DNA of 64,000 nucleotides from Thermoleophilia bacterium SCSIO 60948 (GTDB lineage Bacteria > Actinomycetota > Thermoleophilia > Solirubrobacterales > 70-9). Shown one piece after another: positions 6,648 to 7,269 of the stretch. The first letter of the stretch is position 1. Every line of letters starts with the position of its first letter. The notes below the pieces were generated by a model that saw only the letters and a program-made list of their open reading frames with translations, did not search any database and was not told the DNA's origin. Location of the stretch: the NCBI GenBank assembly GCA_021496505.1, contig CP053031.1, forward strand, positions 2,286,001 to 2,350,000, read 5' to 3'. A program made the position numbers and the translations under genes.

Positions 6648-6786
6648 CCCACCGAGCTTCTGCCCAGCGACACCCCCCGCTAATCCCGCCTCGCGCGGGC
6701 AGGTCGCGGATCATGGCCCGCCGCGGCGCCTGTGGGCGCTCGGGGAGCCCCTCTGTGCACCCGTAGGCGGGCGCTCGGGCAGTCCC

Positions 6787-6861
6787 CCCGGATGAGGGGG
6801 CCAACCCCATCCATGGGGCCCCGGCAGGTGCGGGCATCCATGCCCGCACAGCTCATCCGGG
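6787..6861. other. Possible three-way-junction structured element in gene-free stretch
   Basis: A 10-bp perfect outer stem (CCCGGATGAG at 6787-6796 with CTCATCCGGG at 6852-6861) encloses two perfect palindromes. These are CCCCATCCATGGGG at 6805-6818 and a 22-bp one at 6828-6849 whose arms are GTGCGGGCAT and ATGCCCGCAC. Both inner palindromes share the core ATCCAT. The nested arrangement would fold as a three-way junction in RNA of either strand. It lies about 140 bp upstream of the sugar porter start and could belong to its leader. No known RNA family is recognised. Confidence 0.4.
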
Positions 6862-6931
6862 CGGACAACCCGAGCACCCGCCCCGGGAACGCGCGGAACT
6901 GCGAACAACGGCGCACCGAGGACACACCCGA

Positions 6932-6987
6932 GCGCGACGGATCGCCCCGCGTCCCTGCGCCTCGAGCGCGGGGCGATTCAGTCGCGC
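6932..6987. other. Long interrupted inverted repeat
   Basis: GCGCGAC (6932-6938) and ATCGCCCCGCG (6941-6951) face their complements CGCGGGGCGAT (6967-6977) and GTCGCGC (6981-6987), with a 15-nt loop. The right half has a near-copy about 60 bp further on (around 7026-7047), so part of the element is duplicated. It lies in the same gene-free stretch as the other palindromes, downstream of the acyl-CoA dehydrogenase and upstream of the sugar porter. It could be a terminator-like hairpin or part of a leader RNA. Confidence 0.4.
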
Positions 6988-7068
6988 AATCCGCGATGGA
7001 TCGTCCCAGCGTCGTCGTGCGAGAGGCGCGGGGGCGATTTCGTCGCGGTCGGCGCGGCCGATCGAAGC

Positions 7069-7114
7069 CGAACGTCCCAGACGTGCACTTATAAGGGCAC
7101 TTCCGGGACGTTCG
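7069..7114. other. 46-bp imperfect palindrome centred on an A/T-rich core
   Basis: Arms of about 21 bp with roughly 18 matches surround an unusually A/T-rich centre (CACTTATAAG). The ends are perfect: CGAACGTCCC at 7069-7078 and GGGACGTTCG at 7105-7114. It sits 155 bp beyond the stop of the acyl-CoA dehydrogenase. It may be a protein-binding site or a transcript-end hairpin. I see no coding potential in 6648-7269 beyond these elements. Confidence 0.4.
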
Positions 7115-7269
7115 AGCCCTAGGGACGCCCGGCGGCAACCCCAGCCGCCCGAACTCGCTCCCCTCGGTGCCATCAGCCGCGCCGGAGACCGCCGCAGCGG
7201 CGGAGGGCTGGGCGCCACCCACCCCACGGAGCGCGGCACCCGAAGGGCCCGAAAGCCCGCCCCCCCGAG

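Follow-up and report, generated by a model that had tools for sequence, protein, structure and literature searches.

The window analysed here, a 64,000-nt stretch of DNA, carries one copy of a short repeat that is dispersed through its source genome and probably was, or still is, mobile; transcribed from the minus strand, this repeat probably yields a three-way-junction RNA with CAUGGAYG loops that titrates CsrA. This reading is built from sequence, namely from the multi-copy state of the element, compensatory changes in its stems, its AUGGA loops, a wobble bias, the presence of csrA, and its likeness to gammaproteobacterial repeats.

A first-pass annotation of the window had described a perfect 10-bp stem around two palindromes with a common ATCCAT core, in about 620 bp without genes. 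Both parts of this description are confirmed: the stem sequence CCCGGATGAG (6787-6796) is perfectly complementary to CTCATCCGGG (6852-6861) and encloses the palindromes CCCC-ATCCAT-GGGG (6805-6818) and GTGCGGGC-ATCCAT-GCCCGCAC (6828-6849), and the gene-free stretch measures 622 bp, from the start of a sugar porter gene (6647) to the stop of an acyl-CoA dehydrogenase gene (7270). The span it had given, 6787-6861, contains the palindromes but is too narrow at both ends, as the outer inverted repeat comprises 31 nt on each side (6766-6796 and 6852-6882, 87% complementary) and the repeat unit extends from 6766 to 6882. The features are as follows.

6766..6882, proposed RNA strand minus: complete repeat unit of 117 bp, a three-way junction (inverted repeat, ten copies, both-side changes)
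6766..6796: low-coordinate arm of the outer stem (inverted repeat; sequence changed and complementarity kept in the copies of a same-genus genome)
6852..6882: high-coordinate arm of the outer stem (inverted repeat)
6828..6849, minus strand: hairpin 1, 5'-most on this strand, candidate CsrA site with loop AUGGAU at 6836-6841
6796..6822, minus strand: hairpin 2, candidate CsrA site with loop AUGGAU at 6809-6814
6883..7218: shared tail of about 340 bp, adjoining the 5' side of the element as read on the minus strand (own-genome search and alignment)
7069..7114: 46-bp imperfect palindrome within the tail, CGAACGTCCC..CTTATAAG..GGGACGTTCG, conserved in five of five tails

The three-way junction fold of 95 nt has a z-score of -4.6, with none of 200 shuffles equally good, and the full 117 nt of the minus strand fold at -96 kcal/mol (z -7.9). 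The GGA of hairpin 1 and that of hairpin 2 start 27 nt apart.

The genome-wide search named in the first-pass annotation returned ten copies of the element in the source genome (3.42 Mb, one contig). Eight of them are 91-100% identical, while two variants at 78-81% (1510544 and 824156) have a different middle stem and the identical type of fold. The suggestion of a multi-copy intergenic element thus holds, and a chance origin, already judged improbable from the arrangement itself, is ruled out by the ten copies. At least five recognisable, diverged copies are found in a second, 54% complete genome of the genus. Here, a different complementary pair takes the place of the outer stem; the basal part varies between copies, yet remains largely paired, and one copy is without hairpin 1. 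Comparison of the copy flanks in the two genomes gave no matching neighbour proteins, so that the copies seem not to occupy shared positions. A search of 60 relatives of the order with model R1 gave no match in any genome outside the genus, and plasmid records gave no match either. At 824156-824461 of the source genome, two copies, one of each sequence type, form an inverted pair between convergent genes; gammaproteobacterial genomes, too, often have a similar element in inverted pairs. Some copies (e.g., those at loci L004 and L017) are immediately preceded by short direct repeats of outer-arm sequence, GGCGGGCGCTCGGGCAGTCC..., with a spacing of 35 bp, which resemble internal-deletion derivatives.

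When the 15 copies of the two genomes were aligned, 94% of the cells were paired with standard pairs and 33 of the 47 pairs showed changes on both sides, as good a result being reached by none of 500 shuffles; these pairing statistics are inflated, as the copies had been aligned to fit the structure. Stem replacements are visible by eye, and most copies fold as three-way junctions unaided. The element therefore passes the covariation check in relatives that had been proposed for it, and its copies and covarying stems support the earlier idea of a structured RNA.

Beyond the genus, the double-hairpin pattern was found in at least 120 stretches of reference genomes, nearly all from gammaproteobacteria, and in 14 viral contigs. 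At 117 of 131 distinct gammaproteobacterial motif sites, the motif is surrounded by a helix of no fewer than 10 bp. A covariance model, R2, built from the ten copies of the source genome only, matches the gammaproteobacterial stretches mostly over their full length, with E-values down to 3e-11. Ten gammaproteobacterial genomes, picked because they carry the motif, were searched with this model: seven gave 14-122 matches each (62, 105, 59, 25, 76, 122, and 14) and three gave none. As a palindrome can be hit on either strand, some elements may have been counted twice, and the actual numbers could be as little as half of those given. For the same reason strands were mixed in the R2 alignment (A3), and wrong-strand rows were taken out before pairs were counted. 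Genomes of Pseudomonas, Xanthomonas and related bacteria each have tens of close look-alikes, with high copy numbers in Xanthomonas, Saccharospirillum, and Marinimicrobium.

The stem arms also indicate which strand acts as RNA. They were aligned with G-T and A-C scored alike, and isolated mismatches, i.e. those with two Watson-Crick pairs on each side, were counted as distinct contexts. On the AUGGAU strand, which is the minus strand in the window, seven G-T and no A-C contexts were found in the genus (p 0.016) and 27 versus 7 in gammaproteobacteria (p 0.0008); a looser count gave 49 versus 20 and 148 versus 105. The contexts are partly dependent, and the bias has the same direction in both sets. 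Such a preference for G-U on the minus strand argues for a minus-strand RNA as the target of selection, which explains the bias where DNA structure does not. Overall, the predicted structure and the minus RNA strand are well supported.

A rival reading is a mobile DNA repeat of palindromic sequence, similar to MITEs or REPINs, in which the hairpins would serve transposition without any RNA or CsrA role. Much of what we observe would suit such a repeat: the copies are numerous, intergenic, and close to gene ends, they have terminal inverted repeats and are dispersed as in MITEs, they form inverted pairs (824156+/824344- in the source genome and many in gammaproteobacteria), and they have different gene neighbourhoods in the other genome of the genus. 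Some intergenic repeats of Pseudomonas have been proposed as MITEs (PMC2718517). However, neither a wobble bias on one strand nor loops that vary only at the N of ANGGA are expected of DNA, the Y1/RAYT transposase PF01797 has no match in the source genome while control genomes were positive, and a non-systematic look at the flanks of the ten copies revealed no obvious target duplication. We consider a pure DNA repeat unlikely. Its special case, a REP element mobilised by RAYT, was rejected for want of a PF01797 transposase in the genome.

The loops in turn lead to CsrA, the proposed partner of the minus-strand RNA. On this strand, both loops read C-AUGGAY-G, with AUGGAU twice in the window copy. 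The loop of hairpin 1 is unchanged in all 14 copies that possess this hairpin, hairpin 2 has AUGGA in 15 of 15 copies followed by U or C, and AUGGAY is present in every genus copy that retains both hairpins. CsrA/RsmA prefers CANGGANG, with an ANGGAN hexaloop closed by C-G. The element has the paired ANGGA hairpin loops of CsrA/RsmA-sequestering RNAs (CAUGGAUG loops), and the source genome encodes csrA, which scores above the Pfam and NCBIfam cut-offs. Leu4, Val42, Arg44, and Ile47, positions that we take to matter for RNA binding, are retained in its product when aligned to RsmE of PDB 2jpp. The gammaproteobacterial copies that were not selected by their loops follow the same rule: in 27 model hits without the search motif, a few of which are unrelated palindromes, the second hairpin mostly has AUGGA, AGGGA, AAGGA, or ACGGA. 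Hairpin 2 of these relatives thus conforms to ANGGA (A-U/G/A/C-GGA-Y), as the free N of the consensus varies and the fixed positions stay constant. From these features we infer that CsrA binding is the most likely function of the element.

It weighs against the CsrA reading that CsrA is present in 126 of 151 genomes of the order, within which the element was found only in this genus, and that csrA was not found in the 54% of the second genus genome that is available. A per-genome count of the pattern SGCATGGAYGCS as a correlate of CsrA was uninformative. The start of csrA itself (L018:1640-1670) reads GGGAGAATGGATGCTT on the coding strand, where AUGGA overlaps the translation start, and CsrA autoregulation through this site is possible. 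In a genome of the same order and another family (loci L113-L119), we observed a different multi-copy repeat, built of perfect hairpins in tandem, GAAGGATTCGGC[AG]TCCATGCCGAATCCTTC, whose stems covary and whose loop on one strand reads CAUGGAYG, as in the window element; it is possibly an independent CsrA-type repeat.

All copies examined are intergenic. Those elsewhere adjoin clpC/radA, tsf/pyrH, a sigma factor gene, gpmI/hsp20, a glutaredoxin gene, and acpS, as read by eye from the translations. According to the gene-context table of the two genomes of the genus, 12 of 15 copies lie just after a gene with the AUCCAU strand in sense, so that the RNA strand is antisense. The first-pass annotation had assigned the element to the sugar porter mRNA leader, and for this single copy both position and direction agree with it, as the RNA strand points to the porter. 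A riboswitch-like cis element in this leader is nevertheless highly improbable and largely refuted by the other nine copies, which sit beside unrelated genes and, for the most part, point the other way; hence, the element is not a regulator of sugar porters in particular.

In gammaproteobacteria, only 2 of 83 sites at GC-rich loci lie inside a called gene, and among those no more than 250 bp away from a gene 3' end the AUCCAU strand is again mostly the sense strand (29 versus 14), with genes called by a codon-composition heuristic. The position of the AUCCAU strand, in sense right after the stop codon in 12 of 15 copies and with a similar lean in gammaproteobacteria (29/43), would also be expected of a plus-strand element in the 3'-untranslated region of mRNAs that uses AUCCAU loops for transcription stop or protection of the mRNA 3' end. 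However, the wobble bias is on the opposite strand, a U-tract was not seen, and such a role does not require invariant loops, which makes this reading rather improbable. For the preferred CsrA reading, the antisense lean is the main weakness, since it is odd for a sponge borne on mRNAs, and both counts imply that many copies would have to rely on a promoter of their own or on read-through.

Neither a sigma-70 promoter nor a U-tract terminator was seen at the element. The tail at 6883-7218 may contain a promoter or the remainder of an RNA gene. It is present at five of the ten copies in the source genome with 88-100% identity, always beside the element, and two of these tails are without about 60 bp; a search of the second genus genome gave no convincing match.

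Under the CsrA reading, the minus-strand transcript would fold into a three-way junction in which a long stem of variable sequence presents the two CAUGGAYG hairpins. Transcription of the copies would start at a promoter of their own, perhaps in the tail, or occur by read-through, and the two ANGGA hexaloops of each transcribed copy would bind one CsrA dimer, so that CsrA would be titrated or the RNA around the copy marked. In spreading, the copies would have come to lie directly after stop codons. More tentatively, CsrA-binding junctions may have spread as mobile repeats in distant bacteria, with tens of scattered, mostly antisense decoys per genome at gene 3' ends acting as a distributed sponge in place of a single sponge gene.

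Many bacteria use CsrA as a global regulator. According to PMC4333381, RNAs that antagonise it had been identified only in gammaproteobacteria. The occurrence of this type of repeat in an unrelated lineage that encodes CsrA, together with its gammaproteobacterial abundance, would turn the titration of CsrA by dispersed repeats into a general hypothesis open to testing; if true, abundant repeats so far regarded as DNA litter would gain a function.

Among known RNAs, the CsrB, CsrC, RsmX, RsmY, and RsmZ sponges likewise have ANGGA-loop hairpins paired for a CsrA dimer. These come from a single locus or a few loci and offer many sites per RNA, whereas the window element occurs in many copies that have two sites apiece. 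A literature search for the loop sequence returned nothing relevant. Below-cut-off matches of the window to CRISPR-DR29 (23.7 bits, cut-off 39) and to several microRNAs were judged to be chance.

The best bacterial Rfam family on the minus strand is the TwoAYGGAY RNA (RF01731, clan CL00106), described by Weinberg 2010 (PMC2864571), for which Gardner and Eldai predicted CsrA binding (PMC4333381). The match (6800-6850, 21.3 bits) is below the gathering cut-off of 43 bits, which also counts against the CsrA reading, and we therefore call the window element TwoAYGGAY-like rather than a member; the other genus copies searched gave no RF01731 match at E<=10. Several Pseudomonas copies of the same design reach the cut-off and are named TwoAYGGAY by Rfam, while four loci of the gammaproteobacterial type (L171 from Stenotrophomonas, L210 from Saccharospirillum, as well as L217 and L242) have no TwoAYGGAY match even at E<=1, and loci of this type thus exist outside the listing of the Rfam model. 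In a Pseudomonas-type prophage (L257), a TwoAYGGAY match and a C4 antisense RNA are about 0.8 kb apart.

The window element also shares properties with the intergenic repeats of Pseudomonas and with REP/REPIN sequences, as it is short, intergenic, and multi-copy with inverted repeats. The Pseudomonas repeats (R0, R2, R178, and others; R178 has 101 bp and internal 11-bp repeats) have many copies per genome and favour sites between gene 3' ends (PMC2718517). In contrast to these families, the window element comes without RAYT and has conserved GGA loops and an RNA-strand bias. Its design is that of TwoAYGGAY, with two adjacent hairpins carrying AYGGAY loops (AUGGAU twice) inside a weakly conserved external stem, here 31 nt long and covarying, so that the novelty once suggested for it holds only in part. 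It differs from TwoAYGGAY in outer stem sequence, in spacing, in the dispersal of its copies, and in bacterial lineage, its host, a member of the Thermoleophilia within the Actinomycetota, being, we believe, outside the groups named for this RNA.
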